A DNA stretch of 32,919 bases. It comes from a virus. Of this stretch, positions 3-13,615 are shown in pieces (position 1 is the stretch's first letter; each line of letters opens with the position of its first letter). The translations under genes were made by a program, and so were the position numbers. Location of the stretch: positions 1-32,919 of IMG/VR virus record IMGVR_UViG_3300044695_003509. One strand, given 5' to 3'. Under the pieces are notes generated by a model, which worked only from the letters and a program-made list of their open reading frames with translations, made no database searches and was not told the DNA's origin.

Positions 3-110
3 CTCCTAGTAGAGTCAGAAATCACGTTAAATCTCCCCGTGCTAGGTGGTGGTGGTGACCTAGCAACATTACCCTCTCGTCTAACGGCAGGACAACTGGT
101 TTTGGTCTAG
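3..110 (+). CDS. C-terminal end of an upstream protein (partial)
   Basis: An open frame enters from the left edge and ends at TAG 108-110, giving 35 residues that include a run of four glycines followed by GDLATLPSRLTAGQLVLV. The other two forward frames stop early (TAG at 7-9, TGA at 56-58), so this is the most likely end of a gene that starts outside the window. Glycine runs of this sort also occur in the fibre protein just downstream, so a virion protein is possible, but I do not recognise the family. Its last 41 bases lie inside the tRNA-Gln gene. The frame could be chance, because only 108 bases are visible. Confidence 0.4.
   Translation, partial: LLVESEITLNLPVLGGGGDLATLPSRLTAGQLVLV
40..65 (+). 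other. Perfect 8-bp inverted repeat (hairpin)
   Basis: TGCTAGGT at 40-47 pairs perfectly with ACCTAGCA at 58-65 around a GGTGGTGGTG loop. There is no T-tract after it, so it is not a typical intrinsic terminator. It lies just upstream of the first tRNA and inside the apparent end of the preceding gene. It may help processing of the tRNA transcript, or it may simply reflect coding sequence. Confidence 0.35.
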
Positions 111-140
111 TTAATGGTAGTTCGAATCTATCGGGGGTAA
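70..140 (+). tRNA. tRNA-Gln (anticodon TTG)
   Basis: A full cloverleaf can be drawn. The acceptor stem is TACCCTC (70-76) with GGGGGTA (133-139), containing one T-G pair. The D stem is GTC/GAC (79-81 with 91-93). The anticodon stem is ACTGG/CTAGT around the loop TTTTGGT, giving anticodon TTG. The T arm is GGTAG-TTCGAAT-CTATC and the discriminator base is A. CCA is not encoded in full. It is the first of three tandem tRNA genes and overlaps the apparent 3' end of the preceding protein gene. Confidence 0.88.
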
Positions 141-171
141 CAATTGCTCAGTTCTTCTATTGAGTACTACT

Positions 172-245
172 AGACCCTTAGCTCAGCTGGTCAGAGCGGT
201 GCACTCATAATGCAAAGGTCACAGGTTCAATCCCTGTAGGGTCTA
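172..245 (+). tRNA. tRNA with anticodon CAT (Met, or Ile2 reading AUA)
   Basis: The acceptor stem AGACCCT (172-178) pairs perfectly with AGGGTCT (238-244). The D arm is GCTC-loop-GAGC, the anticodon loop is CTCATAA (anticodon CAT), and the T arm ACAGG-TTCAATC-CCTGT is perfect. The first anticodon-stem pair is a G-A mismatch (GTGCA/TGCAA). CCA is not encoded. The anticodon alone cannot separate elongator Met from a tRNA-Ile2 whose C34 is converted to lysidine. AUA codons are common in this AT-rich phage, so Ile2 is a real option. Confidence 0.88.
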
Positions 246-253
246 CTTTTTTT

Positions 254-327
254 GATCTTGTAGCTCAGCTGGATAGAGCAACTGCCTTCTAAGCAGTAGG
301 TCACAGGTTCGAATCCTGTCAGGATCA
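254..327 (+). tRNA. tRNA-Arg (anticodon TCT)
   Basis: The acceptor GATCTTG (254-260) pairs with CAGGATC (320-326) with one T-G pair. The D arm GCTC/GAGC is intact. The anticodon stem ACTGC/GCAGT encloses CTTCTAA, giving anticodon TCT. The T arm is ACAGG-TTCGAAT-CCTGT. It reads AGA/AGG arginine codons, which are the main arginine codons in the neighbouring genes. It is last in the tRNA cluster and lies 22 bases before the terminator. Confidence 0.92.
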
Positions 328-349
328 CCGCAGTGAGATGCTTACCGTT

Positions 350-386
350 AAAGGATCTATCATTAAGTTGGTAGGTCCTTTTTTTT
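350..386 (+). terminator. Strong intrinsic terminator after the tRNA cluster
   Basis: AAAGGATCTATC (350-361) pairs over 12 positions, three of them G-T, with GGTAGGTCCTTT (370-381) around an 8-base loop. A T-tract follows to 386. It should end the transcript carrying the upstream gene and tRNAs and insulate the fibre gene, whose own late-type promoter motif begins at 391. Confidence 0.85.
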
Positions 387-390
387 ATGT

Positions 391-400
391 CTATTTATAA
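391..400 (+). promoter_or_regulatory. Late-promoter-type motif CTATTTATAA (fibre gene)
   Basis: The motif ends 6 bases before the ATG at 407 and sits directly after an intrinsic terminator, so a new promoter is expected here. The same motif precedes eleven other starts in the window. Function is inferred from its recurrence and position. Confidence 0.65.
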
Positions 401-406
401 TCGATT

Positions 407-3064
407 ATGGCTATTGTATTAAGAGAAACAAAAGGTTCTGCGTTATCCTTTCCAGAGATGGATGGTAATTTTACGTATTTGTCAAGTTCTTATTTACCTG
501 CATCAGGCAGTAATACGTACGAAGGATTATTACTTATTAACGGTACGTTAACTATCTCAGGTTCAAATACTTTAATCGCTGATACATCGATTATACAAGG
601 TAAGAATTATGGAACTACTGCTTCACCCTCTTACAGGAATTTAGCTTCTGGGCAATATGCTTTTGCGAGAGGAGAACATGTTACTGCTTCAGGTGCTCAT
701 TCATTTGCAAATGGATCTGGTAGCATTGCTTTGTATGACTACTCACATGCTGAAGGAAGAAATACTAGAGCTCTCAGTGATTATGCTCATGCTGAAGGTA
801 ATGGCAGTACTGCAGAAGGGTATGCTTCGCATGCTGAAGGTTTTAGAAGTTATGCTTATGGTGAATCATCACATGCTGAAGGATATAACGGCTTAGGTAT
901 AAGTGATTACTCTCATGCTGAGGGTTGGTATACTACTACACAGGGTCTTGCAGCTCATGCTGAAGGTATCCAAACTAGGGCGGCAGGTGCTTATTCGCAT
1001 GCTGAAGGTGAGAGGACAGTTGCTTTGGGAAGTGGTTCGCATGCTGAGGGTAGAGATACTACGGCAGGTGGTTGGAGATCTCACACCGAAGGTTATTTGA
1101 CTGTTACTGCTGGTGAGGGTGGTCCTACTGGGCACGGTTCAGGTGGAAAGGGACATGCTGAAGGTAGGGGTACTACTGTAATCGGTTACGGTGCTCACAC
1201 AGAGGGTTATCAGACCACAGCTGCTACTGGTTCGGTATCATCACATGCTGAAGGAGCTTATACAACAACCAAAGGTGTTTATTCTCATACTGAAGGGCTT
1301 TATACTTTTGCTCTCGGTTCTGGTTCTCATGCTGAAGGTTCTGGAAGTTCTGCTTTAGGTATAGCCTCTCATGCAATGGGATTAGGTACTATTGCTTCTG
1401 GTTCTTTCCAGCAAGTGCTTGGTAAGTATAACCTTATCCACAGTGCTTCTAACGATTTCTTAGTTGTCGGTAACGGTACGCCTACAATACGTAAAGATTT
1501 AGCGATCTTCAGTCAGAACTTTATAGGGTTATCTCAAAGCATATTTATGCCTGATTTAACTTTGGTTGAAAGACCTCACGTTATTTCATTTAACCCTGTT
1601 GATGGTCAGTTATTCTACATGTCGACTGCTTCTTTCGGCGGTGGTGGTGGAACTACTATTACAAACATTTATACATCGAGTTTTAACTACTACACAAGCT
1701 CTATTATATACACCGGTAGCTTTAACCCCACAGGTAGTTCTTTTACCTACAATAGCAGTAGTATAACCAACATAATTATTTCAGGGTCTGGGTTTGATAA
1801 CTGGCAGGATGTGACTACTCGCGGTAACCATACTTCATGTAGCTTGGATGTTTCTTTGGGTGTTCCTAGGAATAAAACAGGATCATTCTCTGTAGGACCT
1901 ACTCTATCTCACGGTAATAACTTAACAGCTTCAGGTATCTATGCTCATGCACAGGGTAATGGAAGCGTTGCATCAGGTTCTTATTCACATGCTGAAGGAG
2001 TTCTTGCAAAGGTGTTTTCCGCCTATGGTCACGCAGAGGGTGGTGCTACTGTTGTTTACGGTGCACAAGCGCATGCTGAAGGTGCGGAAACGACTGCACT
2101 TGGAGATTCATCTCATGCTGAAGGATATAATAACATAGCTCACGGTAGTTATGCTCACGCTGAGGGTGCTATTACTACTGCGATTGGAGATTTCTCTCAC
2201 ACAGAGGGTTTTAGAACTACGGCAGTAGGAACGTACTCTCATGCTGAAGGTCAGAGGTCAACTGCGGTTGGGGAATCGTCTCACGCAGAGGGTGGTTTCT
2301 GGGATAGTGGAGTTACAACTTTTGGTAATATAGGTTTAGGGTCTTACTCGCATGTTGAAGGTGCAGCTAACACTACCGTGGGTATTGCATCTCATGCAGA
2401 AGGATGGTTGAATATCACCTATGCAGATTACTCACATGCTGAAGGGTACCAAAATACTACAAATCCAGATGCTATTTACTCTCACGTAGAGGGTTTCTTA
2501 AATACTGCCCGTGCAACTGGGTCGCATGCTGAGGGGTATGATAACATAGCAGAAGGGAAGTGGTCACATGCTGAAGGATATTCTAACATTGCAAACGGAA
2601 TTGTATCTCATGCTGAAGGACAGAATACAAGGACGTACGGACCTTTTGCTCACTCTGAAGGATTAGCAACACAGGCTCATGGTTCTGCTTCACATGCCGA
2701 AGGTCATTTAACTTATGCTTACGGAACTGGGTCTCACTCTAGCGGATACGCAACTATTGCTTTAGGTAACTACTCGTTCACAGCAGGTATTGAAACCGTA
2801 GCTTCCGGTGCTTATCAAACAGTAGTAGGATCTAAAAATACACCCGGTGATACTACTTCTCTATTCATTGTAGGTAACGGCACTACTGCTCCAGGCAGGG
2901 ATGCATTTAAAGTAACACCTTCTGGTTCAATCATTGTTCCTACAGGATCTTCCGCTCCAGCTTGGACAGGTAGAGAAGGAGAAATGATTCCAGTTGCTTC
3001 TGGTGGATCTTTTTACCTATATTGCTATATTGGAGGTACTTGGAAGAGAACACAATTTACATAA
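407..3064 (+). CDS. Trimeric-type tail fibre / adhesin with SHAEG repeats
   Basis: An 885-residue virion fibre candidate, probably a trimeric beta-roll like YadA-type and Hep/Hag adhesin heads, used for receptor contact. Two repeat blocks are visible: residues about 113-325 (15 copies) and 513-780 (19 copies). The core is SHAEG or close variants (AHAEG, SHTEG, SHVEG, GHAEG), mostly spaced exactly 14 residues. Each block ends in a similar cap: FLVVGNGT near 351 and LFIVGNGT near 819, followed by a short R-D/K segment. A Ser/Thr/Gly-rich linker (about 405-480) separates the blocks. The N-terminus (MAIVLRETKG...) probably anchors to the tail and the C-terminus ends in GGTWKRTQFT. The ATG is supported by the late motif 6 bases upstream. 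The next gene, 8 bases downstream, is a glycosyltransferase that may modify this protein. The repeat class is clear; the tail-fibre role is inferred. Confidence 0.85.
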   Translation: MAIVLRETKGSALSFPEMDGNFTYLSSSYLPASGSNTYEGLLLINGTLTISGSNTLIADTSIIQGKNYGTTASPSYRNLASGQYAFARGEHVTASGAHSFANGSGSIALYDYSHAEGRNTRALSDYAHAEGNGSTAEGYASHAEGFRSYAYGESSHAEGYNGLGISDYSHAEGWYTTTQGLAAHAEGIQTRAAGAYSHAEGERTVALGSGSHAEGRDTTAGGWRSHTEGYLTVTAGEGGPTGHGSGGKGHAEGRGTTVIGYGAHTEGYQTTAATGSVSSHAEGAYTTTKGVYSHTEGLYTFALGSGSHAEGSGSSALGIASHAMGLGTIASGSFQQVLGKYNLIHSASNDFLVVGNGTPTIRKDLAIFSQNFIGLSQSIFMPDLTLVERPHVISFNPVDGQLFYMSTASFGGGGGTTITNIYTSSFNYYTSSIIYTGSFNPTGSSFTYNSSSITNIIISGSGFDNWQDVTTRGNHTSCSLDVSLGVPRNKTGSFSVGPTLSHGNNLTASGIYAHAQGNGSVASGSYSHAEGVLAKVFSAYGHAEGGATVVYGAQAHAEGAETTALGDSSHAEGYNNIAHGSYAHAEGAITTAIGDFSHTEGFRTTAVGTYSHAEGQRSTAVGESSHAEGGFWDSGVTTFGNIGLGSYSHVEGAANTTVGIASHAEGWLNITYADYSHAEGYQNTTNPDAIYSHVEGFLNTARATGSHAEGYDNIAEGKWSHAEGYSNIANGIVSHAEGQNTRTYGPFAHSEGLATQAHGSASHAEGHLTYAYGTGSHSSGYATIALGNYSFTAGIETVASGAYQTVVGSKNTPGDTTSLFIVGNGTTAPGRDAFKVTPSGSIIVPTGSSAPAWTGREGEMIPVASGGSFYLYCYIGGTWKRTQFT

Positions 3065-3072
3065 AATAAATA

Positions 3073-4119
3073 ATGAAATTTAAAATCAGTTATGTTACAA
3101 CCTCGCCGTTGCAGGTCGGTTGTCCAATTATTAAATTCTACCCTGAGTCTCAAGAGGAGCTTTCTCAGGATTATACTATTGCTTTTCTAGATTTAGAAAG
3201 AGAAGAGGTTGTAGATCAGATTACTGTTAAACCTACTGTTTCAGTTTCCGGACAGAGACAGTGGTATACTGCCTGGCGTATCTTAATATCAAACAGTGAA
3301 GGGACAATTATTTTTCAAGAGGACCTCAACCTAAAAGGCAAAAATGTCTTTATCAAGTCTGATGCTAGTGCGTTGGGGGATAATTTAGCATGGATGCCTT
3401 ACATTGAAGAATTTAGAAAAAAGCATGAGTGTAACGTTATTTGCTCTACTTTCTTTAATGAACTGTTCGTAGATAACTACCCCAATGTGCTTTTTGTAGA
3501 ACCAAATACAAGGGTCTCTAACATATACGCTCAGTATTATATAGGTACCTCAAACGAAATTAACCTCACCTATAGCCCTTCGAGGTACTTGGAGAACCCG
3601 CTTCAAAAGATAGCATGTGATATTCTAGGACTACCCTACACTCAGATCAAACCTAAGGTAGGAGTACCTACAAACTACCCCAAGAAGAAAAAAGTCACGT
3701 TGAGTGAATATGCTTCTCTAAGGGTGAAAGAGTGGTATGCACCGGGCGGTTGGCAGCAGATTGTAGATCTATTTAACCGTTATGGGTATGAAGTTTGCGT
3801 GGTGTCAAAAGAGTATTCTTATCTTTCAGATGTTAGAAATAAGAGCGGGGATAGGTCTCTGCTTGATAGAGTGAGAGATATGGCCGAAGCAAAGTATCAT
3901 GTCGGAATGTCAACAGGATTGTCTTGGCTTGCATGGGCGTGTCACTGTCACGTCTTTTTAATTTCTGATTTCACTCCTCCGGATCACGAGTTTGAATGTA
4001 CTCGAATTTATAATCCAGACTCACCTAGGGAGGTTATAAATTACTTTGAAATTAAAGAGCCTGTTTCGATTCAGGAGGTGCTTTCTAAAATTGAAGCTAA
4101 GCTACTACAAGATCAATAA
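3073..4119 (+). CDS. BAHT-like O-heptosyltransferase (TibC/Aah family) glycosyltransferase
   Basis: A 348-residue cytoplasmic glycosyltransferase. It resembles bacterial autotransporter heptosyltransferases, which transfer ADP-heptose onto serines of repeat adhesins. Visible hallmarks are SDASALGDNLAWMPYIEEF (96-114), VICSTFFNELF (about 122-132), the PLQKIACDILGLP segment, EWYAPGGWQQIVD (about 220-232), and GMSTGLSWLAWA (about 275-286) followed by FLISDFTP. By family knowledge, D103 in LGDN is near the catalytic aspartate. Cellular members also carry a C-terminal four-Cys iron finger with a CxxC. Here the protein ends soon after the LISDFTP region and no CxxC is present, so that module is missing or replaced. 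It starts 8 bases after the fibre gene with no promoter motif of its own, so it is probably co-transcribed. The donor sugar is not determined; a different sugar or target is possible. Confidence 0.78.
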   Translation: MKFKISYVTTSPLQVGCPIIKFYPESQEELSQDYTIAFLDLEREEVVDQITVKPTVSVSGQRQWYTAWRILISNSEGTIIFQEDLNLKGKNVFIKSDASALGDNLAWMPYIEEFRKKHECNVICSTFFNELFVDNYPNVLFVEPNTRVSNIYAQYYIGTSNEINLTYSPSRYLENPLQKIACDILGLPYTQIKPKVGVPTNYPKKKKVTLSEYASLRVKEWYAPGGWQQIVDLFNRYGYEVCVVSKEYSYLSDVRNKSGDRSLLDRVRDMAEAKYHVGMSTGLSWLAWACHCHVFLISDFTPPDHEFECTRIYNPDSPREVINYFEIKEPVSIQEVLSKIEAKLLQDQ

Positions 4120-4125
4120 CTAGGT

Positions 4126-4135
4126 CTATTTATAA
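4126..4135 (+). promoter_or_regulatory. Late-promoter-type motif CTATTTATAA
   Basis: It ends 3 bases before the ATG at 4139, in the 19-base gap after the glycosyltransferase. Same motif class as the one at 391. Confidence 0.6.
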
Positions 4136-4138
4136 AAT

Positions 4139-4465
4139 ATGGCTACCTATTCGGTAAACGTTACTCAATCTAAGACTCTATTCCCAGATAATACTCCGGC
4201 AGGAACTAGTACGGTTTTTGCTGTTACAAATTCTTTAGCGGGAGCTTCTTATTTTAGTTTAGAGACTATTCCAAACAACTCCGGAGTTTATTACGGAACA
4301 GTTCCTTCTATTTCAGGTTCATTCACCTATAGTGCTGGGATTATAGACTTAGTTAAGGATGATTATAAGATGTCGGCTGTGGTTGCACCGGGTGGTGGTA
4401 CTATTACTTTTGTACCTGCAGTTTATGTTTCAGCATCCAGTGTTTGGATGAGGGGAACTTCCTAA
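4139..4465 (+). CDS. Small virion-like protein, unknown
   Basis: A 108-residue protein rich in Ser, Thr, Val and Gly with the beta-strand character of tail or head decoration proteins. I see no signal peptide, membrane segment or catalytic motif. The ATG lies 3 bases after a late-type motif, which fits a structural protein made late. The neighbours are the fibre/glycosyltransferase pair upstream and a tiny basic protein downstream. The family is not recognised; a virion role is inferred from composition and regulation only. Confidence 0.6.
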   Translation: MATYSVNVTQSKTLFPDNTPAGTSTVFAVTNSLAGASYFSLETIPNNSGVYYGTVPSISGSFTYSAGIIDLVKDDYKMSAVVAPGGGTITFVPAVYVSASSVWMRGTS

Positions 4466-4471
4466 GGGTTG

Positions 4472-4481
4472 CTATTTATTA
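4472..4481 (+). promoter_or_regulatory. Late-promoter-type motif CTATTTATTA
   Basis: It ends 6 bases before the ATG at 4488. This variant, with T in place of A at position 9, also occurs at 26414. Confidence 0.55.
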
Positions 4482-4487
4482 GTAACT

Positions 4488-4640
4488 ATGGCACCATCAA
4501 AAGGAAAATCTAAAACCGCCTCCGTTATTGTAAAGATTGCGAAGAAGCAGGTTAAGCGTAAGGGCATTCATGCTAAGACTAAAATGTCTAAAAATAAAAA
4601 ATCTAAAAATTACGTAAAGGTCTCGAGAGGCCAGGGTTAA
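4488..4640 (+). CDS. 50-residue basic Lys-rich protein
   Basis: A short ORF, ATG 4488 to TAA 4638-4640, encoding MAPSKGKSK...SRGQG. About a third of the 50 residues are Lys or Arg and there are almost no acidic residues. Its second half (GIHAKTKMSKNKKSKNY, about 26-42) recalls a short basic C-terminal motif that I remember from proteins of environmental T4-like phages. The late-type motif 6 bases upstream supports translation. A role in DNA condensation or as an internal head protein is possible but not shown; this is inference from charge and size. Confidence 0.65.
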   Translation: MAPSKGKSKTASVIVKIAKKQVKRKGIHAKTKMSKNKKSKNYVKVSRGQG

Positions 4641-4672
4641 TTTGCATCTCTAATTATTTTTACTTATCTTTA
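4641..4672 (+). promoter_or_regulatory. Bacteroidota-type promoter TTTG-N20-TATCTTTA
   Basis: TTTG (4641-4644), a spacer of exactly 20 bases, then TATCTTTA (4665-4672), which matches TAnnTTTG except for the last base. The ATG of the next gene is only 5 bases downstream, so its mRNA would be leaderless or nearly so. Confidence 0.6.
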
Positions 4673-4677
4673 CTGTT

Positions 4678-4908
4678 ATGAACAGTTCATGGAGAATTAT
4701 TGCAGTTCAACCCGACAAACACATTGCCGGAGTTTTAAGACTTTCAGATAGTAAAAAATTCTTTCTCGGTGATATGACACCATACGGCCCTATAAGTAGC
4801 TTCAGTGTCTACCAAGGGTCTATTCAAGTAGAAATGGGAGCAAGTAGTGTTCATGGGATCAAAGAGATTCAACGAGCAACCCTTAAGTATTTGCAGGAGT
4901 TACCCTGA
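4678..4908 (+). CDS. Hypothetical 76-residue protein
   Basis: A 76-residue protein beginning MNSSWRIIAVQPDKHIAG, with alternating hydrophobic residues suggesting a small beta-rich fold and an amphipathic C-terminal helix (EIQRATLKYLQELP). There are no cysteines, signal or membrane segment. Unlike its neighbours it has a host-type promoter rather than a late motif, which suggests early or constitutive expression. I do not recognise the family. Confidence 0.6.
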   Translation: MNSSWRIIAVQPDKHIAGVLRLSDSKKFFLGDMTPYGPISSFSVYQGSIQVEMGASSVHGIKEIQRATLKYLQELP

Positions 4909-4927
4909 GTTCTTTTCTGTAATTTGA

Positions 4928-4946
4928 CGCTATTTATATAAAAGCG
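4928..4946 (+). promoter_or_regulatory. Late-promoter-type motif within a hairpin
   Basis: CTATTTATAT (4930-4939) precedes the ATG at 4956 by 16 bases, longer than at most sites. The motif forms one side of an imperfect hairpin: CGCT at 4928-4931 pairs with AGCG at 4943-4946, extended by TTT/AAA across an A-A mismatch, around the loop ATAT. Confidence 0.5.
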
Positions 4947-4955
4947 CTTTTTAAA

Positions 4956-5792
4956 ATGAACAAAGAATTTAATAGAATGTTGAAACTTGCTGGTCTTATG
5001 ACTGAAGGTTTGTATACTGCTCAGATGTATTCTGAAGAGCCTGTAATGGAAGCTCCTATGAAAAAGATGACTAAGGAGAAATTGAAGGCAAAGATTAAGG
5101 AAATGATGCTCCCTGAAGAGACTATTGATCAAGAAGCTTATGCTGAGATGGGTAGTATGGATGAGTATGATACTCAAGGTCTTACTAATGCTGCCAGTGT
5201 TGTTGATCATTATTTGAAGATGGCTTATGATGCCGGGTCTACGGGTGCGGGATTTGATGATAGTCTTGCTTATGAGATGATGGATCATTTAAAGCAATTC
5301 TCAGGTGAGATGGACAGTCTAGATGAAGCTTCACCGGAAGCTATGGATAGAATGTCAGGGTTATCTCCTGTATCTTCTGTCGGTTCGTTAATCGATGCAG
5401 CAAGAAGAATTATCTCTGCTCTGAAGGGAGAGGGATTTGAAGAGGAAGATATCTTCGACTACATTATGGATAAGGTTAAGACTTTGTCTATGGATGAAAC
5501 TCTTTTTGAAGCTAAGAAAGATGAAGAAGAAGCTCCTCAAGATGTAAGTATCGATGTTGAAGCTCCTGTAGAGGATGTTCCTGATACAGTAGATACTTCA
5601 GTAGATGTTAATATGGATGGTGTTCCTGATGTTGATACTGGTTCTTCAGAATCAAAGAAAGCTTTCACAAACTTGGTTGATACTTATAATGCTGCAAAAG
5701 AATTAGGAGATCCTAAATTAACTCAAATGATTGCTAATGCTTTGACCTACTACAATAAGAACATCATTCTTAAGACTGGTCAACAAGCTTAA
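4956..5792 (+). CDS. Acidic virion-associated protein with LAGLMTEG N-terminus
   Basis: A 278-residue, strongly acidic protein. The N-terminus has an amphipathic stretch ending LAGLMTEG (about 11-18). This is followed by a Lys-rich segment, helical regions (about 75-180), an Asp/Glu/Val/Pro-rich low-complexity stretch (about 190-225) and a final helical segment. DVNMDGVPDVD near residue 217 resembles a D-x-N-x-D-G calcium loop. The hydrophobic-x-E start is like T4 internal head proteins that are trimmed by the prohead protease after [LI]-x-E. A late-type motif lies upstream, so a head-associated or scaffold-like role is inferred. The exact family is not recognised. Confidence 0.65.
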   Translation: MNKEFNRMLKLAGLMTEGLYTAQMYSEEPVMEAPMKKMTKEKLKAKIKEMMLPEETIDQEAYAEMGSMDEYDTQGLTNAASVVDHYLKMAYDAGSTGAGFDDSLAYEMMDHLKQFSGEMDSLDEASPEAMDRMSGLSPVSSVGSLIDAARRIISALKGEGFEEEDIFDYIMDKVKTLSMDETLFEAKKDEEEAPQDVSIDVEAPVEDVPDTVDTSVDVNMDGVPDVDTGSSESKKAFTNLVDTYNAAKELGDPKLTQMIANALTYYNKNIILKTGQQA

Positions 5793-5809
5793 TTAAACTT
5801 AAAATATTT

Positions 5810-5838
5810 GGAAAGGATGCCTTACGGTGTCCTTTTCC
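5810..5838 (+). terminator. Hairpin terminator running into the next late motif
   Basis: GGAAAGGATGCC (5810-5821) pairs with GGTGTCCTTTTCC (5826-5838), with one bulged T and two G-T pairs, around a 4-base loop. The descending arm carries TTTT. It separates the acidic protein from the next gene and its last base is the first base of the late motif there. Confidence 0.55.
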
Positions 5839-5847
5839 TATTTATAA
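5838..5847 (+). promoter_or_regulatory. Late-promoter-type motif CTATTTATAA
   Basis: It ends 5 bases before the ATG at 5853. It decides that start over an in-frame ATG at 5808, which would lie upstream of the motif and inside the terminator stem. Confidence 0.6.
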
Positions 5848-5852
5848 TATAT

Positions 5853-6290
5853 ATGGATCCTAAACTTGTATTTGGATTATTTCAAGATCCTGAAGATAAA
5901 TCAGAGAGTAAGGTTAAAGAGATCGTTGATTTCTCAGATCACCCTTATATCTTCATGGGAATGTTTACCCGAATTATATTTAGAGGGGATGTATTGAACG
6001 ACCAAGTCATTAGGTTCTTTACCGAGATTGATAGGGATTTAGATAAAGTAAATTTAGAACAGCTTAATAAGAACTTGATTTTCAATAGAGCTTATTCGTA
6101 TCTTAAACAATTAGATCTACAAAATTCATTCCACGTAGATACGCTTTTGGAGAAAGCAGATGCTAATTTTTTACAAGCATCTACTTTAGCTTTGAATCAC
6201 TTTTTAGAGTTGGAAGAATATGAAAAATGCAGTTTTATAAAAAATATTATAGATTTTGTAGAATTTTCTCAAAACAAGTTGCCTTTGTAG
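5853..6290 (+). CDS. Hypothetical 145-residue helical protein
   Basis: The start chosen is ATG 5853 (MDPKLVFGLFQDPEDK), 5 bases after a late-type motif. The longer in-frame start at 5808 would translate terminator sequence. The 145-residue product is mostly alpha-helical, with charged and hydrophobic alternation and no membrane segment, signal or metal motif. The motif FMGMFTRIIFRGD (about 35-47) and the terminal helix are its most distinct parts. It lies two genes upstream of the HD-hydrolase/sigma cluster. A chaperone or assembly role is possible, but I do not recognise the family. Confidence 0.6.
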   Translation: MDPKLVFGLFQDPEDKSESKVKEIVDFSDHPYIFMGMFTRIIFRGDVLNDQVIRFFTEIDRDLDKVNLEQLNKNLIFNRAYSYLKQLDLQNSFHVDTLLEKADANFLQASTLALNHFLELEEYEKCSFIKNIIDFVEFSQNKLPL

Positions 6291-6591: not shown

Positions 6592-7380
6592 ATGAATTTA
6601 ACAGCAGAACAGATTCAATCGAATTGGGAAGAATTTTTAGGTTATATTGATACCTACATCTCTTCACCGAGGAAAGAAGACTTACGTAAGTTTTATGAAG
6701 ACCGTGTAGATAGATTTATCTTAATGCCGGCAGCTCATACTACAAAATACCACAACTGTTTTCCCGGAGGTTACATTGAACATGTTAACCGTGTTATCAA
6801 AGCTTCTTTGCATTTTGCAAAACTTTGGGAGAGATTCGGCTGTGATATGTCTACTTTTACGATTGAGGAATTAGTTTTTGCTGCTATGAATCACGACTTA
6901 GGTAAAGTAGGGGATAGTCAAAACGACCTGTATTTACCCGGGAAGGATGAGTGGAGAAAGAAGAACCTGGGTGAGGTTTACTCTTACAACAATGAGGTTG
7001 CTTTCATGACAGTTCCTGATAGGTCTTTATTCTTACTTCAAGAAGCTGGAATTAGGTATTCTATGAATGAGATGTTAGCTATCAGGACTCATGACGGGCT
7101 TTATGAAGAAGCTAACAAGGCTTATTTAATTTCCAGGATGCCAGAGAGTAGACCTAAATCAGTCATTGTTTATATCTTACACCAAGCAGATTTAATGGCT
7201 TCAGTAGTTGAGATGACAGTTAATCCTACAGAACAGCCTAAGTCAAAACAGTTCTCAATTTCAAAAGAGACTACTCAGAAGAACCCAGTAACTCATCAAC
7301 AACAAGCAAAGAACAAAGCATTATCTAACATCCAGAGTGATGGTTTGAAAAATGCAATGTCTAATTTCTTTACAGACTAA
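6592..7380 (+). CDS. HD-domain metal-dependent phosphohydrolase
   Basis: A 262-residue soluble enzyme of the HD superfamily, which hydrolyses nucleotide or other phosphate esters using bound metal. The fold is visible as H54 (YHNCFPGGYIEH), H64, the HD doublet H101-D102 in NHDLGKVGD, H167 in RTHDG and D200 in HQADLMAS. About 55 C-terminal residues are polar and probably disordered. It heads a tight run: the next gene starts on its stop codon (TAATG), followed by the late sigma factor. This arrangement suggests co-expression with the late switch. The substrate is unknown; a nucleotide pool or signalling nucleotide role is inference. Confidence 0.82.
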   Translation: MNLTAEQIQSNWEEFLGYIDTYISSPRKEDLRKFYEDRVDRFILMPAAHTTKYHNCFPGGYIEHVNRVIKASLHFAKLWERFGCDMSTFTIEELVFAAMNHDLGKVGDSQNDLYLPGKDEWRKKNLGEVYSYNNEVAFMTVPDRSLFLLQEAGIRYSMNEMLAIRTHDGLYEEANKAYLISRMPESRPKSVIVYILHQADLMASVVEMTVNPTEQPKSKQFSISKETTQKNPVTHQQQAKNKALSNIQSDGLKNAMSNFFTD

Positions 7381-7667
7381 TGACAACATTAATTACCATA
7401 CTAAGTATAGCAGTCTGTGTATTAGGATACACAACATACAACCTACTGCGCAAAAACGAAAAACAAGAAGACGTTTTGACTGCTTACTTGTTGTATATGG
7501 ATAATCTATCTAAGATTATTGAACATAGCGATCAACAGCTTAAAAAAATTGATAGTAAAGGTACATTTCAAAGTGATGATGAAATTGGATGGTTCTTCGA
7601 GCAAATAAAGGTTATTCAAAGCAGATTAAATAACTTTAAATTGACCGATGACCGAGAAGAAAAATAA
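7380..7667 (+). CDS. Small single-pass membrane protein
   Basis: A 95-residue protein with an N-terminal transmembrane helix (residues about 3-22, LITILSIAVCVLGYTTYNLL) and a cytoplasmic coiled-coil-like tail. The segment GTFQSDDEIGWFFEQIK (about 61-77) looks like a conserved core. It overlaps the HD gene by one base (TAATG) and the sigma gene by 20 bases, so translation is probably coupled. I recall similar small membrane proteins near the gp55 gene in other large phages, but the function is unknown. Confidence 0.7.
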   Translation: MTTLITILSIAVCVLGYTTYNLLRKNEKQEDVLTAYLLYMDNLSKIIEHSDQQLKKIDSKGTFQSDDEIGWFFEQIKVIQSRLNNFKLTDDREEK

Positions 7668-8382
7668 AAATTACTTTACTCACGATACAGAGCTTGCAAT
7701 AATCAAATATGTTAACACAGAAGATTATGCAGAACGTAATAAGATTTATAGGGAAGAAATTCACTATGCATTGTATAAGTTAACACAAAACTTAATTCAC
7801 ACTTTCAAATTTTACTACACGGAAGAGACAAACTTAGAAGATCTTCAACACGAAGTAATTACTTTCCTACTAACTAAACTTGATCGCTTTAATCCTTCTA
7901 ACGGGGCTAAAGCGTATTCTTATTTTGGAACAATTGCCAAGCGATACCTAATTGCTTCAAATCAAAAGAATTACAAAAAAAGAATGGAACTACTCTCCCT
8001 GGATAGCTTAAATACAGAACAAGAAGACGGTGAGTTTGTTTATGGAGACGTATTAGATACCAACGGAGTACAGGCTGATACTCAAGTATACCACCCAGTA
8101 GATGAGGTTTCTGAATTCTTAGATATCTACGTCACTCACTGTACAGATAATATCTACGAACTATTCCCCAAAGATGAAGATGCACAAATCGCCGATGCAA
8201 TCCTTGAACTATTCAGGAAAAGAGAGCATATCAGAATCTTCAACAAGAAAGCCCTATATATTTACATCAGGGAGATTATCGATGTTAAAACACCTAGGAT
8301 TACGAAAGTAGCTAATGAATTAGGAGATCTCTATAAGAAACAGTATGCATTCTATGTAGAGAACGGCTACGCAAGCTTCTAA
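7648..8382 (+). CDS. 55: Late-transcription sigma factor, gp55-like
   Basis: A 244-residue protein resembling T4 gp55-type late sigma factors, which direct host RNA polymerase to late promoters. The conserved region-2-like part spans about residues 40-112. It includes TNLEDLQHEVITFLLTKLDRF and AYSYFGTIAKRYLIASNQK, the segment that by family knowledge contacts the polymerase clamp and the -10 element. The C-terminal part (about 150-244) is more divergent and ends in a helical stretch. The gene overlaps the preceding membrane protein by 20 bases. The window's CTATTTATA sites are natural candidate targets. I judge the assignment good but not certain, since gp55 relatives diverge strongly. Confidence 0.75.
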   Translation: MTEKKNKNYFTHDTELAIIKYVNTEDYAERNKIYREEIHYALYKLTQNLIHTFKFYYTEETNLEDLQHEVITFLLTKLDRFNPSNGAKAYSYFGTIAKRYLIASNQKNYKKRMELLSLDSLNTEQEDGEFVYGDVLDTNGVQADTQVYHPVDEVSEFLDIYVTHCTDNIYELFPKDEDAQIADAILELFRKREHIRIFNKKALYIYIREIIDVKTPRITKVANELGDLYKKQYAFYVENGYASF

Positions 8383-8395
8383 ACCTTCCTACTTT

Positions 8396-8412
8396 CTATT
8401 TATAAAAAATAG
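8396..8412 (+). promoter_or_regulatory. Late-promoter-type motif within a hairpin
   Basis: CTATTTATAA (8396-8405) lies 14 bases before the ATG at 8420. Its CTATTT (8396-8401) pairs perfectly with AAATAG (8407-8412) around ATAAA. This and the site at 4930 are the two with long spacing to the ATG, and both are in hairpins. Confidence 0.55.
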
Positions 8413-8419
8413 ACTACTC

Positions 8420-8755
8420 ATGAGTTTAGATAAATTAATATTTAAGAATAAGAAATTCGCAGACCTTCTAGAAGAGATTTACGATAATCAAAAGAAGAAG
8501 GAGAAGCAGATTTCAACTCTTATCTCAGAATTAAGACCATTAATCGAAGATACTGGAGATGCGACTTTGATCGTACCTCTTATCAAAGAGTACCTAGAAA
8601 TCGGAGTTAAGAATGATGACCAGCTCGTAAAGGTTGCAACTATCATCCAACGTATATTTCAGAATCAAGATTCAGCAACCGATTCGTTTGGTATTTCTGA
8701 TGAAGAAAGAGAGCAGTTGATGAAAGAGATTAACAACATTAAGGAAGATAAGTAA
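8420..8755 (+). CDS. Hypothetical helical protein at the head of the baseplate block
   Basis: A 111-residue, charged, all-helical protein with a coiled-coil segment (QKKKEKQISTLISELRPLIED, about 24-44) and an acidic/basic C-terminal helix. It has no signal or catalytic motif. Its stop overlaps the start of the gp5-like gene (TAATG), so it is translated with the baseplate proteins. A role as a baseplate assembly factor or small hub component is inferred from position only; I do not recognise a T4 counterpart. Confidence 0.6.
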   Translation: MSLDKLIFKNKKFADLLEEIYDNQKKKEKQISTLISELRPLIEDTGDATLIVPLIKEYLEIGVKNDDQLVKVATIIQRIFQNQDSATDSFGISDEEREQLMKEINNIKEDK

Positions 8756-9993
8756 TGGCAAAATTCGGCTTTGGAGCTTTAAACGACAACTATAATACTG
8801 GAGCTTCCGGCACTAGTAAGACTCTTGATGCACTAAAGCTTGCAAGTTTAAATTCAACCGGGAGAGTATTAAGCATCGTCTTAGATGATACTCATCCAAA
8901 GTATCAAGAACTAGGAGGACCAAAAGCCATTGGTGCAGTTGAAATAATCGATCTTTCTGGAGGTACAGCAGACTATTCAACAACATCCGATAATCAAAAT
9001 TATAGAGTTGCATACCCTTTGCAGCCAGGGTTAAAAAACTACCCACTTATAAACGAAGTTGTTTATCTAGTATCACAGCCGACGAAGAAAATAATGCAGA
9101 GAAATTCTGCAAAAGCATTATATTATATTAGCGTAGTGAACCTTTGGAATCACCCACACCACAACGCTATTCCATATTCTGCAGGATCCTCTACTCCGGA
9201 GAATTCTAAAAACTATCAAGATTCAGCTCTAGGTAGTACGAACAAGTTAACAGATACTGCCGGAACGATAAAGTTTGGAAACTACTTTAAAGAAAGACCA
9301 AACATCTATCCCCTACAGCCTTTTGAAGGGGATCTGATTTACGAAGGAAGGTGGGGTAACAGCATCCGGTTAAGCGGTACAGCTCCTAATAAAAACCCGT
9401 GGTCTACCACCGGTACCCAAGGAGATGCTATAACTATTATTAGGAACGGTCAAACAGACAATCCAAATAAAAACGGATGGGACTTTACAGTAGAAGATAT
9501 AAACACAGATGCTTCTTCTGTCTACTTAACAACTACTCAGAAAGTCCCGCTCACTGCCAATACGAACTACTTTAGCTATAAATCGAATCCCCCCACCCTA
9601 CCTGATGAATATACAGGGAAGCAGATAATTTTGAATTCAGGAAGGTTAGTGTTTAATACAACAGAAGATCACCTGCTACTTAGCTCTGCTAAAAGTATCA
9701 GTTTGAGTTCTGCAGGAACGGTTAACGTAGATGCCTCTGAAATGACAATCCAAACAGAGAAAATATATTTAGGATCTAAATCTGCAACCGAACCTTTACT
9801 GTTAGGTGATACGACAGTAGAACTGCTAAAGACGATGATCGACGTATTAAAAGACCTGGTTACAGCATCTCAGACAGCATCTAATTCAGGAGGTCCAATA
9901 CCTAGTTTAAATCAGAAAGCACCCGGTCTGTTGAAAAAACTTTTGACATTAAATCCAGACCTTCTTAAATCAAATTCTAATTTTACAGTATAA
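8755..9993 (+). CDS. Baseplate spike/hub protein, gp5-like (no lysozyme domain)
   Basis: A 412-residue protein with the architecture of phage spike proteins: an N-terminal OB-like domain (about 36-110, with LPL-type beta strands and VAYPLQPGLKNYPLINE) and the segment DLIYEGRWGNSIRLSG (about 193-208). A repetitive beta region (about 290-345, LLLSSAKSISLSSAGTVNV) would form the trimeric needle, and a helical tail follows. T4 gp5 has an internal lysozyme domain; I see none here. Genes for baseplate gp25 and gp6 follow, which supports the assignment. It overlaps both neighbours by one base (TAATG). The class is confident; exact equivalence to gp5 is less so. Confidence 0.72.
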   Translation: MAKFGFGALNDNYNTGASGTSKTLDALKLASLNSTGRVLSIVLDDTHPKYQELGGPKAIGAVEIIDLSGGTADYSTTSDNQNYRVAYPLQPGLKNYPLINEVVYLVSQPTKKIMQRNSAKALYYISVVNLWNHPHHNAIPYSAGSSTPENSKNYQDSALGSTNKLTDTAGTIKFGNYFKERPNIYPLQPFEGDLIYEGRWGNSIRLSGTAPNKNPWSTTGTQGDAITIIRNGQTDNPNKNGWDFTVEDINTDASSVYLTTTQKVPLTANTNYFSYKSNPPTLPDEYTGKQIILNSGRLVFNTTEDHLLLSSAKSISLSSAGTVNVDASEMTIQTEKIYLGSKSATEPLLLGDTTVELLKTMIDVLKDLVTASQTASNSGGPIPSLNQKAPGLLKKLLTLNPDLLKSNSNFTV

Positions 9994-10940
9994 TGACACC
10001 GGAAGAATTAGAAAAACAGAGGAAACAAGAAGCAGCTAAGAGGGATGCTTTTAATAAAAAGTTAAAACTTCAAAGAGCGCTAGCTACTGCAACCGTTGTT
10101 GCAACTGCAACACAATTAGCTCCTTTAGATAGGATTAATCAAACAATCAATACTAAGATTGAAGACCTACGGGACAAAGCAACATCTACGCTACTAACCT
10201 TAGCATCCCAGCTAGGAATAGAAGGATTAGATACAGCTAACCCAACTTTACCGAACGTATGTCCTTCACAGGATATTCTAGATAGGGCATTACAAGTACG
10301 TAATGCTTTAGGTGCAGATATCGAAAACACCACGAAGTATATCGACACTATAGATGCATCTCTGCAGATATTAACCCCAATCCTAAACGGAACAGTTACA
10401 TCCCTGAATGCTATAAGCCTCCTAAAGACCGCTACGTCATTAGCTGCTAAACTAGCACCAACATTACCCGGAGCAGTTACAGCTCTTATAAGCGACTTAG
10501 ATGATATTAGAACATCGATAACATTCAAATCAGATGGAACAGCTAGACTACCAGAGTTACAAAGAGCTTTAGCATTAGGTAGTCAGTACGTCTCTGATGC
10601 AGCTAAGGTAATGCAGGCGGTTATAACAGTACTAGCAGTAGTCGACCTTGTATTAGAGAAGTGTGGTAAGAAGCCTAACGAAGTAGGAGCAAACACTAAT
10701 AAACTCTTGAATACCATAAAATTAGCAGCAACCTCTAATATCGACCTAACTTATAGAGGGTTTACTTTTGAGATTGTAGAGAAACCATTTAGTCCGACTC
10801 TAAAGCAGAGAATAGGACAAGCAAAAAATAGTCAAGGAATCGTTCTACTACAGACAGAACCATCCTTCACAACAGACCCTCAAGTCCTTGTTGAGGAGTT
10901 AAAACTCATTATAGACAGGGATAATCTAAAAGCCAATTAA
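9993..10940 (+). CDS. Ala/Leu-rich baseplate-region structural protein
   Basis: A 315-residue protein with a charged helical N-terminus (EELEKQRKQEAAKRDAFNKK). A long Ala/Thr/Leu-rich central region (about 28-225) follows, with helices hydrophobic enough to mimic membrane segments, then a compact C-terminal domain beginning TYRGFTFEIVEKPF (about 254) that looks beta-rich. It overlaps the spike gene by one base. The location between spike and gp25 suggests a baseplate hub or tail-associated component. No T4 homologue is recognised, and a long helical bundle or tape-measure-like helper is an alternative. Confidence 0.6.
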   Translation: MTPEELEKQRKQEAAKRDAFNKKLKLQRALATATVVATATQLAPLDRINQTINTKIEDLRDKATSTLLTLASQLGIEGLDTANPTLPNVCPSQDILDRALQVRNALGADIENTTKYIDTIDASLQILTPILNGTVTSLNAISLLKTATSLAAKLAPTLPGAVTALISDLDDIRTSITFKSDGTARLPELQRALALGSQYVSDAAKVMQAVITVLAVVDLVLEKCGKKPNEVGANTNKLLNTIKLAATSNIDLTYRGFTFEIVEKPFSPTLKQRIGQAKNSQGIVLLQTEPSFTTDPQVLVEELKLIIDRDNLKAN

Positions 10941-10943
10941 GAA

Positions 10944-10953
10944 ATATTTATAA
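10944..10953 (+). promoter_or_regulatory. Late-promoter-type motif ATATTTATAA
   Basis: It ends 3 bases before the ATG at 10957. The first base is A rather than C, as also at 19668. Confidence 0.55.
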
Positions 10954-10956
10954 AAG

Positions 10957-11334
10957 ATGGATACTAAAGTATTTAAAAAACTCATCAAAGAAGCCGTAAG
11001 AGAAGCTATTCAAGAAGAATTGAAAGACATTCTATTGGAAGCAGTACGTGCACCTAAAACAATCATTCAGGAGAGCTACTCAACTCCCGTACCAGTTTCA
11101 ACCCAACCAGTAGCAGCTAGTATTAATGCAAGAGATAAATACAAAGAACTATTAGGTGGAATGATGGAATCAAGAAACGGAAACATTTCAATGACTTCAA
11201 ACGACGCTATGTCTTTTGGAGCACAACCTGGATACAGACCACCTGCAACAGTTAACACTGCCGGAGAAGGATCTGCGCTACCTGCAGGAGAAGTTAACCT
11301 AGACCAGATTATGGGTCTTATTAATAAGAAATAA
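10957..11334 (+). CDS. Small protein with helical N-terminus, possibly virion-associated
   Basis: A 125-residue protein. The first 30 residues are a strongly amphipathic helix (KKLIKEAVREAIQEELKDI) ending ILLEA, which matches the hydrophobic-x-E pattern seen in several late proteins here. The remainder is Pro/Gly/Ala/Ser-rich and probably disordered, with a last short helix (LDQIMGLINKK). A late motif lies 3 bases upstream of its ATG. The stop overlaps the gp25 ATG (TAATG), so it is co-translated with the baseplate wedge. Function unknown. Confidence 0.6.
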   Translation: MDTKVFKKLIKEAVREAIQEELKDILLEAVRAPKTIIQESYSTPVPVSTQPVAASINARDKYKELLGGMMESRNGNISMTSNDAMSFGAQPGYRPPATVNTAGEGSALPAGEVNLDQIMGLINKK

Positions 11335-11741
11335 TGGCATTTGGTGCAAAGAAGATATTCCCAATAGATAAGAAACCTTCAGTCGCTGTAGGAGTCGGAA
11401 TACCCTTTGCTGCACCTGGCGTCTTTACCTCTACCTACACTACTCAACAAGCTATCAAAACTAACCTGATTAACTTGTTTCTAACTGGAACCGGACAAAG
11501 GTACTTAAACCCAACATTCGGAGCAGGTTTACAAGTTTATATTTTTGAACAGTTAAACAGTAATACAGAAGTAGCTTTAGAGGAAGATATACAGAGTATT
11601 ATAAGCGAGTATTTTCCAAGCGTTATTGTCGAAAACTTAACAGTGACAGGTAACCCTGATACAAATCAAATTACAGTTGCATTAAAGTATTCTATAAGAG
11701 ATACAGGAGTAACAGACAACTTAGAAATATCATTCAACTAA
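11334..11741 (+). CDS. 25: Baseplate wedge protein gp25
   Basis: A 135-residue protein of the GPW/gp25 family, a core wedge subunit joining baseplate to sheath. The family signature is visible as QAIKTNLINLFLTGTGQRYLNPTFGAGL across residues 39-66 (written here as its parts QAIKTNL, GQRYLNP and FGAGL). The FEQLN helix follows, then VALEEDIQSIISEYFP (about 80-95) and a C-terminal beta hairpin with the expected YSIRDTG. The length agrees with T4 gp25 (132). It is directly followed by gp6, the conserved order in contractile-tailed phages. Confidence 0.92.
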   Translation: MAFGAKKIFPIDKKPSVAVGVGIPFAAPGVFTSTYTTQQAIKTNLINLFLTGTGQRYLNPTFGAGLQVYIFEQLNSNTEVALEEDIQSIISEYFPSVIVENLTVTGNPDTNQITVALKYSIRDTGVTDNLEISFN

Positions 11742-11742
11742 A

Positions 11743-13599
11743 ATGGCAGTAAAAAGAGACATAAAATACCTAAATAAAGATTTTAGCACATTGAGGGCTT
11801 CCTTAATCGACTATGCTAAAACTTATTTCCCTACAACCTATAATGACTTTAGTCCGTCATCTCCCGGGATGATGTTTATGGAAATGGCAGCTTATGTAGG
11901 AGATGTTATGTCTTTTTACTTAGACAATCAAATACAAGAGACTTACTTGCAGTATGCTCGTCAAACAGATAACTTGTTTGAGTTAGCATATATGTTTGGT
12001 TACAAGCCAAATGTAACAGGTGTTGCAACAACAACCATTGATTTCTACCAACAAGTACCTGCAAAAGCATCTGGAACAGATACAGTTCCTGATTTTGATT
12101 ATGCTTTGTTGATTGCTGAAAATGCAGTTGTAGCATCAACCTCTAACAGCGAAGTTAAATTTCTAGTTCAAGATAGTGTAGACTTTTCAGTATCTTCTTC
12201 ACAAGATCCAACAGAAGTTACAATCTTCCAAACAGCAGGACCAGATCCGGTTAGCTATCTTTTGAAAAAAAGCAGGCAAGCAATCTCTGCTACAGTTAAT
12301 ACTGCCGCTTTAACCTTCACCGCACCGGTACAGTTCGATACTAGAACTATTAACGCAGAAAATATTGTTGGCATACTAGACGCTACAGATAGCGACGGCA
12401 ATACATGGTACGAAGTAGATTATTTAGCTCAAGATGCAATCTACTCAGGTATTAAGAATACAAACCCCAACGACCCTAACCGGTCAGTCGATAACGCAGA
12501 TACACCCTACATCCTACAATTAGAACAAGTTCAAAGAAGATTTGCAACTAGATTCTTAGATTCAGGGTCGTTACAACTACAATTTGGAGCAGGTACTGCA
12601 ACAGATACAGACGAAACAATCATACCAAACCCCGATAACGTAGGTCTTGGATTACCTTTCCAACAATCTAAGTTAACAACCGCCTATTCACCCACAAACT
12701 TTATTTTTACAAAAACATACGGCATTGCCCCTTCAAACACAACCGTTAGTGTTAGATACTTGACGGGGGGAGGAGTAGCTGCAAACGTTCCTTCAAATGA
12801 CCTAACAGTTATTACAGGGGATATCAACTTCTTAAATTCAAATCTTAATACAGCTACAGCAAACACTTACAGAGCATCTTTAGCGGTAAACAATCCAGAT
12901 GCAGCGGTTGGAGGTCAAGACGGCGATAGTATTGAAGAAATTAGACAGAATACATTGTCTAATTACCAGACTCAGCTCCGTAACGTAACTCAAGACGACT
13001 ATCTAGTTAGAGCATTATCGATGCCGGCCAGGTACGGAGTCATCGCTAAAGCATATATTGAACAGACTAAAATTGCTAATCTAGGAATAGGTGAAACACC
13101 AACAACGTTAGACCTGTACGTACTAACTTACAACAGCAATAAAAACCTAGTTAAAGCCTCTAACGCATTAAAACAGAACCTTGACACCTACTTATCACAA
13201 TACAGAGTAATAGGTGATTCAGTTAGAATTAAAGATGCTTTTGTAATTAACATAGGGGTTAATTTTGATATAACAGTTGCTCCAAACTACAACAGTAATG
13301 AGGTAATCCTCGCCGCTATAACAGCAGTAAGAGAGTATTTTAACATAAACAGTTGGCAGATCAATCAGCCTATCCTACTGAAAAACTTAAGTCTTTTAAT
13401 TGATAATATCGACGGAGTACAGACAGTTAAGAATGTTGAAATTGTTAATTTGACTGGGCAAGCATTAGGCTACTCTAACTATTCTTACGATACAAAAGGA
13501 GCAACGATTGATAACGTAGTGTACCCTTCTATTGATCCTATGATTTTTGAAGTTAAGTATCCAAACGTAGATATTAAAGGAAGAGTAGTTTCTCTTTAA
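11743..13599 (+). CDS. 6: Baseplate wedge protein gp6 (baseplate J-like)
   Basis: A 618-residue protein matching T4 gp6 (about 660 residues), which dimerises to form the inner ring of the baseplate wedge. The N-terminus has YLNKDFSTLRASLIDYAKTY, then SPGMMFMEMAAYVGDVM and FELAYMFGYKPN. The middle part carries the baseplate-J-like core (TVSVRYLTGGG near 350; EEIRQNTLSNYQTQLRNVT near 400, then DDYLVRAL), and the C-terminus is beta-rich. It starts 1 base after the gp25 stop, so it is in the same operon. This is one of the firmest assignments in the window. Confidence 0.92.
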   Translation: MAVKRDIKYLNKDFSTLRASLIDYAKTYFPTTYNDFSPSSPGMMFMEMAAYVGDVMSFYLDNQIQETYLQYARQTDNLFELAYMFGYKPNVTGVATTTIDFYQQVPAKASGTDTVPDFDYALLIAENAVVASTSNSEVKFLVQDSVDFSVSSSQDPTEVTIFQTAGPDPVSYLLKKSRQAISATVNTAALTFTAPVQFDTRTINAENIVGILDATDSDGNTWYEVDYLAQDAIYSGIKNTNPNDPNRSVDNADTPYILQLEQVQRRFATRFLDSGSLQLQFGAGTATDTDETIIPNPDNVGLGLPFQQSKLTTAYSPTNFIFTKTYGIAPSNTTVSVRYLTGGGVAANVPSNDLTVITGDINFLNSNLNTATANTYRASLAVNNPDAAVGGQDGDSIEEIRQNTLSNYQTQLRNVTQDDYLVRALSMPARYGVIAKAYIEQTKIANLGIGETPTTLDLYVLTYNSNKNLVKASNALKQNLDTYLSQYRVIGDSVRIKDAFVINIGVNFDITVAPNYNSNEVILAAITAVREYFNINSWQINQPILLKNLSLLIDNIDGVQTVKNVEIVNLTGQALGYSNYSYDTKGATIDNVVYPSIDPMIFEVKYPNVDIKGRVVSL

Positions 13600-13602
13600 T
13601 TC

Positions 13603-13612
13603 CTATTTATAA
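13603..13612 (+). promoter_or_regulatory. Late-promoter-type motif CTATTTATAA
   Basis: It ends 3 bases before the ATG at 13616, in the short gap after gp6. Confidence 0.6.
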
Positions 13613-13615
13613 CAA

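Follow-up and report, generated by a model that had tools for sequence, protein, structure and literature searches.

The closest described relatives of the system reported here are TibC and Aah, glycosyltransferases of the BAHT family whose genes lie beside those of the repetitive adhesins TibA and AIDA-I. Roles have been assigned to the TibC residues D110, T226, K230, R286, W305 and P300, and TibC mutants in the iron finger or the thumb leave TibA without heptose (PMC4358343). BimC of Burkholderia has been reported to bind BimA and to target it to the cell pole (PMC11499645). From phages, a YadA domain has been described in the tail fibre of a pelagiphage (PMC3909814), and Freeman et al. (2023, as cited in PMC12691614 and PMC10955285) have reported glycosylation of mycobacteriophage virions. 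A paper on a phage BAHT was not found in the open-access literature, although absence there is no proof. Here we describe two neighbouring genes of the IMG/VR virus record IMGVR_UViG_3300044695_003509 (the window, meaning the whole stretch of 32,919 nucleotides analysed). The first encodes a tail fibre with YadA-head type repeats (407..3064, + strand, 885 aa) and the second a BAHT-like glycosyltransferase without thumb and iron finger (3073..4119, + strand, 348 aa). On balance it is likely that this enzyme O-glycosylates, probably by heptosylation, the fibre of its own phage. A first-pass annotation of the window had proposed as much, with evenly spaced serines marking the substrate; its interpretation is partly supported, being right in kind, and its serine argument has been replaced.

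The Glycosyltransferase

The enzyme belongs to the BAHT family by profile and by fold, an assignment that is well supported. It matched TIGR04414 (hepto_Aah_TibC) with E=5e-54 and 183.7 bits, where the curated cut-off is 200 and relatives score about 182, and matched the TibC structure (PDB 4rap) by sequence with E=4e-25. The AlphaFold model (pLDDT 95.4) aligned to TibC with Z 36.2 and 2.3 Å over 333 residues (model range 1-348), the N-terminal beta-barrel included. GT9 enzymes reached a Z of at most 19.2 with the barrel not covered, and WaaC (Z 17.8) aligned with model residues 90-347 only. The profile of lipopolysaccharide (LPS) heptosyltransferase I, TIGR02193, gave E=0.04 and 13 bits against 185. 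This score and the partial WaaC alignment speak against a GT9 LPS heptosyltransferase (WaaC/WaaF), and the BAHT-like call of the first-pass annotation is supported, with TIGR04414 far ahead of TIGR02193. The spacing that it gave was also exact: the stop codon of the fibre gene ends at 3064 and the enzyme ATG is at 3073, with 8 bases between.

In the alignment, Asp103 (codon 3379..3381, + strand) is the counterpart of the catalytic D110 of TibC and Lys219 (codon 3727..3729, + strand) that of K230, a sugar-donor contact (PMC4358343), while T226, R286, W305 and P300 correspond to S215, R266, W285 and S280. D103, S215, K219, S280 and W285 are invariant in 34 fingerless rows; R266 is found in 33, with Val in one. 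Comparison with the enzyme gene of record L002 gave a dN of 0.053 and a dS of 0.554, which indicates purifying selection.

Both of the TibC modules are absent, a point that the earlier reading had overlooked. The beta-hairpin thumb is replaced by a 9-residue gap at TibC F265/V266, and the place of the iron finger of TibC and its fingered relatives falls at about residues 305-317 (3985..4023, + strand). The number of Cys after residue 300 is 0-1 in all 34 fingerless rows versus 4-5 in six fingered relatives. A fingerless enzyme must therefore assemble or work differently, or transfer no sugar, and a TibC-type dodecamer appears unlikely from the sequence. A rival reading is a non-enzymatic helper, which would attach to the fibre and assist it in folding, in forming trimers or in reaching its place, while transferring hardly any sugar or none. 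Such a helper would fit the loss of modules required for TibC activity, the position of the gene directly after the fibre gene, and the precedent of BimC, a BAHT beside a YadA-type adhesin that acts in targeting (PMC11499645). However, the reported role of BimC depends on the iron finger that is absent here, and the clade shows no variation in its catalytic Asp or its donor-pocket residues. With the change in a repeat threonine along with the enzyme and the relatives that have sulfotransferase and APS-kinase genes next to it (both described below), a helper is quite improbable.

The Fibre

The record that contains the fibre gene is that of a phage and includes baseplate genes, and general Pfam and NCBIfam scans reported no membrane-anchor family for its product. 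The 36 motif matches of the protein fall into two blocks (residues 99-335 and 513-795), and 34 of the matches are xHxxG, in agreement with the approximately 34 SHAEG-type units counted earlier. The interval is exactly 14 residues in 30 of 35 cases; the others are 16, 16, 23 and 24 residues and the inter-block gap. Block 1 (about residues 99-334) spans 701..1408 and block 2 (about residues 513-803) spans 1943..2815, both on the + strand. At the DNA level the HAEG pattern occurs 24 times versus 0.09 expected from shuffled sequence. Position 1 of the repeat is Ser in 73%, Ala in 20% and Gly in 7% of the units, so that the claim of one Ser per 14 residues holds for 73% of them.

The fibre matched Pfam YadA_head (PF05658) with E=1.1e-13 and 51.6 bits, above the cut-off of 25, and by sequence the solved trimeric-adhesin heads BpaC, CbpF and YadA; PHROG 25468 (function unknown) was its top PHROG match. 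A model of block 2 (residues 495-806, 312 residues, pLDDT 91.9) was all beta. Its top structural match was the head of BpaC, with Z 22.2 and, over 245 residues, 34% identity and an rmsd of 7.8 Å that may come from a difference in long-range twist. Foldseek by itself found no significant match for block 2, and the YadA-like assignment is based on profile, sequence and VIA-align. A YadA-like fibre, with the beta-roll that the first-pass annotation had expected, is supported. The closest annotated relatives of the fibre and the baseplate are Flavobacterium immuto phages, and this relatedness suggests a Bacteroidota host.

Linkage of Fibre and Enzyme

The fibre and enzyme genes sit exactly between two copies of a GTCTATTTATA...ATGGCTA element. 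The first copy (389..413, + strand) is the start element of the fibre and the left edge of the unit, and the second (4124..4145, + strand) is the start element of the next gene and the right edge. That next gene (4139..4465, + strand, 108 aa, no family found) is a conserved neighbour and lies directly after the empty site in a close relative, L356. The proteins of L356 from this gene to the baseplate are 74-98% identical to those of the window (most 81-98%) and L356 has the tRNA-Arg on the left flank, yet it has neither fibre nor enzyme. At its empty site there is a small coiled-coil-like open reading frame (5832-6134, 100 aa), a similar terminator hairpin and then CTATTTATA...ATGGCTA of the counterpart of gene 4139. 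No match to either fibre or enzyme was found in ten relatives spanning the region (L356 and nine more distant ones). On these sequences gain and loss of the unit would both fit the L356 comparison, and accessory genes may perhaps be exchanged at this site.

An alignment-based scan has yielded 417 viral stretches with BAHT relatives, and the analysis was made on the best 80 of the 417. The enzymes fall into two sets, fingerless single-domain proteins of about 345 aa versus mostly fingered, often multi-domain proteins, and the first of these sets makes up one clade (32 clustered rows, SH-aLRT 99). A 14-residue-repeat fibre lies <=2.4 kb from the enzyme gene in 13 of the 32 clade rows, a label that needs several changes on the tree. 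Whole records contain YadA_head repeats in 24 of 43 fingerless cases versus 1 of 45 other BAHTs (Fisher p about 7e-9) and, clustered at 95% identity, in 18 of 32 versus 1 of 36 (p about 8e-7), a clade-level comparison that is not free of shared ancestry. The pair is also present in L002 (9 nt apart), L003/L004, L058/L067, L081 and L089, and thus recurs in separate branches of the enzyme tree. That the pairing is not due to chance is well supported, and the coupling of the two genes asserted by the first-pass annotation stands, given their common absence from L356 and the enrichment of YadA_head in the clade. The frequent separation of the two genes in other phages would agree with neighbours by coincidence, or with a gene in decay that is functionally unconnected with the fibre. 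Strong purifying selection, an invariant active site, the clean empty site from which both genes are missing and the repeated pairing make this exceedingly improbable.

The Candidate Acceptor Residue

Ser at position 1 of the repeat (Ser1) is about equally frequent with and without the enzyme, and evenly spaced Ser was rejected as the mark of a substrate. The position that differs is Thr at position 9 (Thr9), which stands at 0.52 in enzyme-linked fibres versus 0.23-0.28 in fibres without enzyme (p 8e-5 and 2e-4). By lineage the values are 0.51 and 0.26 (p=9e-5), with 13 of 13 lineages above the no-enzyme median, in a test that is not free of shared ancestry. Thr9 was picked from 42 comparisons (14 positions x three residue classes), which is answered in part by a held-out set of fibres elsewhere in enzyme-bearing records, where it is 0.48 (p 7e-5 and 3e-4). 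Record L017 (fibre 79% identical), which ends a few bases past the fibre stop at ATGAA, was counted as enzyme-linked. The fibre of the window, at 0.38, is among the weaker cases. A general enrichment of Ser and Thr was rejected as the cause (S+T per unit about 3.6 with versus 3.5 without enzyme), as was GC content, which showed no correlation and below 42% of which the effect remains. From the repeat sequences, Thr at unit position 9 (SHAEGxxTT) would be a better acceptor candidate than the SHAEG Ser. Heptosylation of Thr as well as Ser has been reported for the flagellin of enterotoxigenic Escherichia coli, where the responsible transferase was left unresolved (PMC5000012).

The Probable Sugar Donor and Neighbouring Modification Genes

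The synthesis of ADP-heptose by the phage was rejected, with an HldE-kinase-like gene in 0 of 32 fingerless records, and the donor would have to come from the host. The HldE nucleotidyltransferase domain was above cut-off in two Bacteroidota metagenome-assembled genomes, which makes a host donor plausible. Some relatives have further modification genes adjoining the enzyme, namely a sulfotransferase-family match in L057 and L097, an APS-kinase gene in L069, L084 and L097, and a GT4 glycosyltransferase gene in L059. Similar proteins occur at corresponding places in L057, L069, L083 and L084. The sulfotransferase-like/APS-kinase genes (L057 2739-4041; L069 5854-7573; L083 3206-5057, - strand; L084 9447-11298, - strand; L097 4144-5414) come from three branches of the enzyme tree and have SHAEG fibres in their vicinity. 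Sulfotransferase and APS kinase together hint that the fibre or its glycan is sulfated, and neighbour sets of this kind would be expected of a decoration locus. Next to the enzyme of the window there is no sulfotransferase, APS-kinase or second glycosyltransferase gene.

Evidence Against Fibre Glycosylation, and a Possible Different Target

Several results weigh against glycosylation of the fibre. The enzyme is without both modules that TibC needs for TibA heptosylation (PMC4358343), the HldE-kinase-like gene was not found in the 32 fingerless records, and shared ancestry may enter the YadA_head and Thr9 comparisons as stated above. A YadA-type fibre was not seen in 14 of the 32 fingerless lineages, many records being fragments, and one fingerless sub-clade has the enzyme gene away from the tail genes. 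A BAHT was present in just 1 of 50 sampled SHAEG-fibre records, the two-unit HAEG scan for fibre-bearing contigs covering the matches listed and giving no IMG/VR base rate. The fibre-enzyme distance was only marginally below random (p=0.05 in 16 long records, where the far-apart cases were estimated by hand), and gene distance was dropped as a proof of linkage.

The rarity of the enzyme among fibres, the remote sub-clade and the marginal gene distance would suit a different target, either a further protein of the virion or a glycan or protein on the host surface that is modified to block superinfection; the enzyme would then sit by the fibre because tail-fibre regions gather accessory genes. 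Set against this are the close relative L356 without both genes, the match to a protein-modifying family and not to the GT9 LPS enzymes, the enrichment of YadA-type fibres in clade records and the raised Thr9 in fibres far from the enzyme gene. A different target is rather unlikely. Independent occurrence of the two genes, which the first-pass annotation would have counted against itself, is thus seen from the side of the fibre, which is mostly without enzyme, while the enzyme is strongly tied to such fibres.

Proposed Mechanism

In the reading preferred here, the two genes form one bicistronic, exchangeable unit, with a start element that belongs to the fibre gene. During infection the BAHT-type GT-B enzyme would draw on an ADP-sugar of the host cell, for which ADP-heptose is the most likely candidate, and the sugar would be O-linked to side chains along the YadA-like beta-roll before the fibre enters the virion. 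Unlike TibC, the enzyme would work without an iron-finger/thumb dodecamer, and the pair lets one ask whether BAHT chemistry requires that assembly. Possible benefits are a stiffer fibre, resistance to proteases, a change in adsorption or masking; fibre glycosylation could alter adsorption, stability and recognition, and L356, without both genes, is a natural comparison. A wider proposal is tentative and, taken whole, somewhat doubtful: that the phage BAHT branch is a small non-dodecameric enzyme that O-glycosylates fibre threonines and moves as a cassette with the fibre, and that in some relatives neighbouring sulfotransferase and APS-kinase genes add sulfate to the glycan or the fibre. If true, phages would apply the enzyme-adhesin logic of bacterial autotransporters to their own fibres, in a modular virion-decoration system that was not found described in the literature searched.

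Other Features of the Window and Other Viral BAHTs

An intrinsic-terminator-like hairpin of 13 pairs (350..381, + strand) lies ahead of the unit; for the junction of fibre and enzyme no such hairpin was reported. The element CTATTTAT has 10 copies in the window, on the + strand only (391, 4126, 4472, 4930, 5838, 8396, 13603, 24513, 26414 and 31050). Eight are 12-26 nt upstream of a listed start and the other two are at a similar distance upstream of an ATG; the element is possibly a late promoter or start signal. None of the 10 copies is ahead of the enzyme gene. This layout is consistent with one transcript and with exchange as a unit, and from it the fibre and enzyme are probably co-transcribed, the enzyme being read from the fibre message. 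A weak late-sigma-factor match is present at 7648-8382. The relatives L357 and L365 have 26 (196-5987) and 24 (97-5565) tRNA genes, versus 3 in the corresponding stretch of the window.

A tblastn search of an annotated phage collection gave four records, three of them uncultured; the sole cultured isolate was Microcystis phage Mel-JY01, with a BAHT of the fingered, fused form. Iron-fingered BAHT domains within proteins of 680-2859 aa were found in L092, L098, L101-L111, L113, L115-L128, L130 and L132 (large/huge phage contigs). In L103 the fingered BAHT protein (6885-9017, + strand) and a SHAEG fibre (9431-14401, - strand) are on opposite strands, 414 bp apart; this fibre is also Thr9-rich (0.51), a pairing separate from the fingerless ones. 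BAHT-like genes also occur in L134, L137 and L139, contigs binned as Rickettsiales, Pacearchaeota and Nitrosotalea, which are possibly mis-binned phage DNA.

Comparison with Known Systems

Fibres of the same repeat type are known from other phages with YadA/BpaC-head-like fibres (PHROG 25468, the tail spike of Flavobacterium phage immuto, the pelagiphage fibre). The immuto fibre is about 41% identical to that of the window over the matched stretches, and the immuto records searched for BAHT gave no match. Mycobacteriophage virion glycosylation likewise concerns phage particles with glycans, and the citing passages (PMC12691614, PMC10955285) name neither BAHT enzymes nor YadA-like fibres. In BimC/BimA, as in the phage pair, a BAHT gene adjoins that of a YadA-homologous trimeric adhesin (PMC11499645); BimC differs in its bacterial origin, in its iron finger and in the role described for it, that of a partner in polar targeting. 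TibC/TibA and Aah/AIDA-I (TIGR04414; 4RAP/4RB4) share with the phage enzyme the sequence family, the N-terminal beta-barrel and GT-B fold, the catalytic Asp, the donor-pocket residues and a gene beside a repetitive beta-structured adhesin. Ser280 of the phage enzyme is Aah-like (S294) and not TibC-like (P300), which would predict that, like Aah, it accepts ADP-heptose in both the D,D and the L,D form. Unlike TibC and Aah, the phage enzyme has no beta-hairpin thumb and no iron finger, and it is phage-borne, with a phage fibre as its partner in place of a secreted autotransporter.

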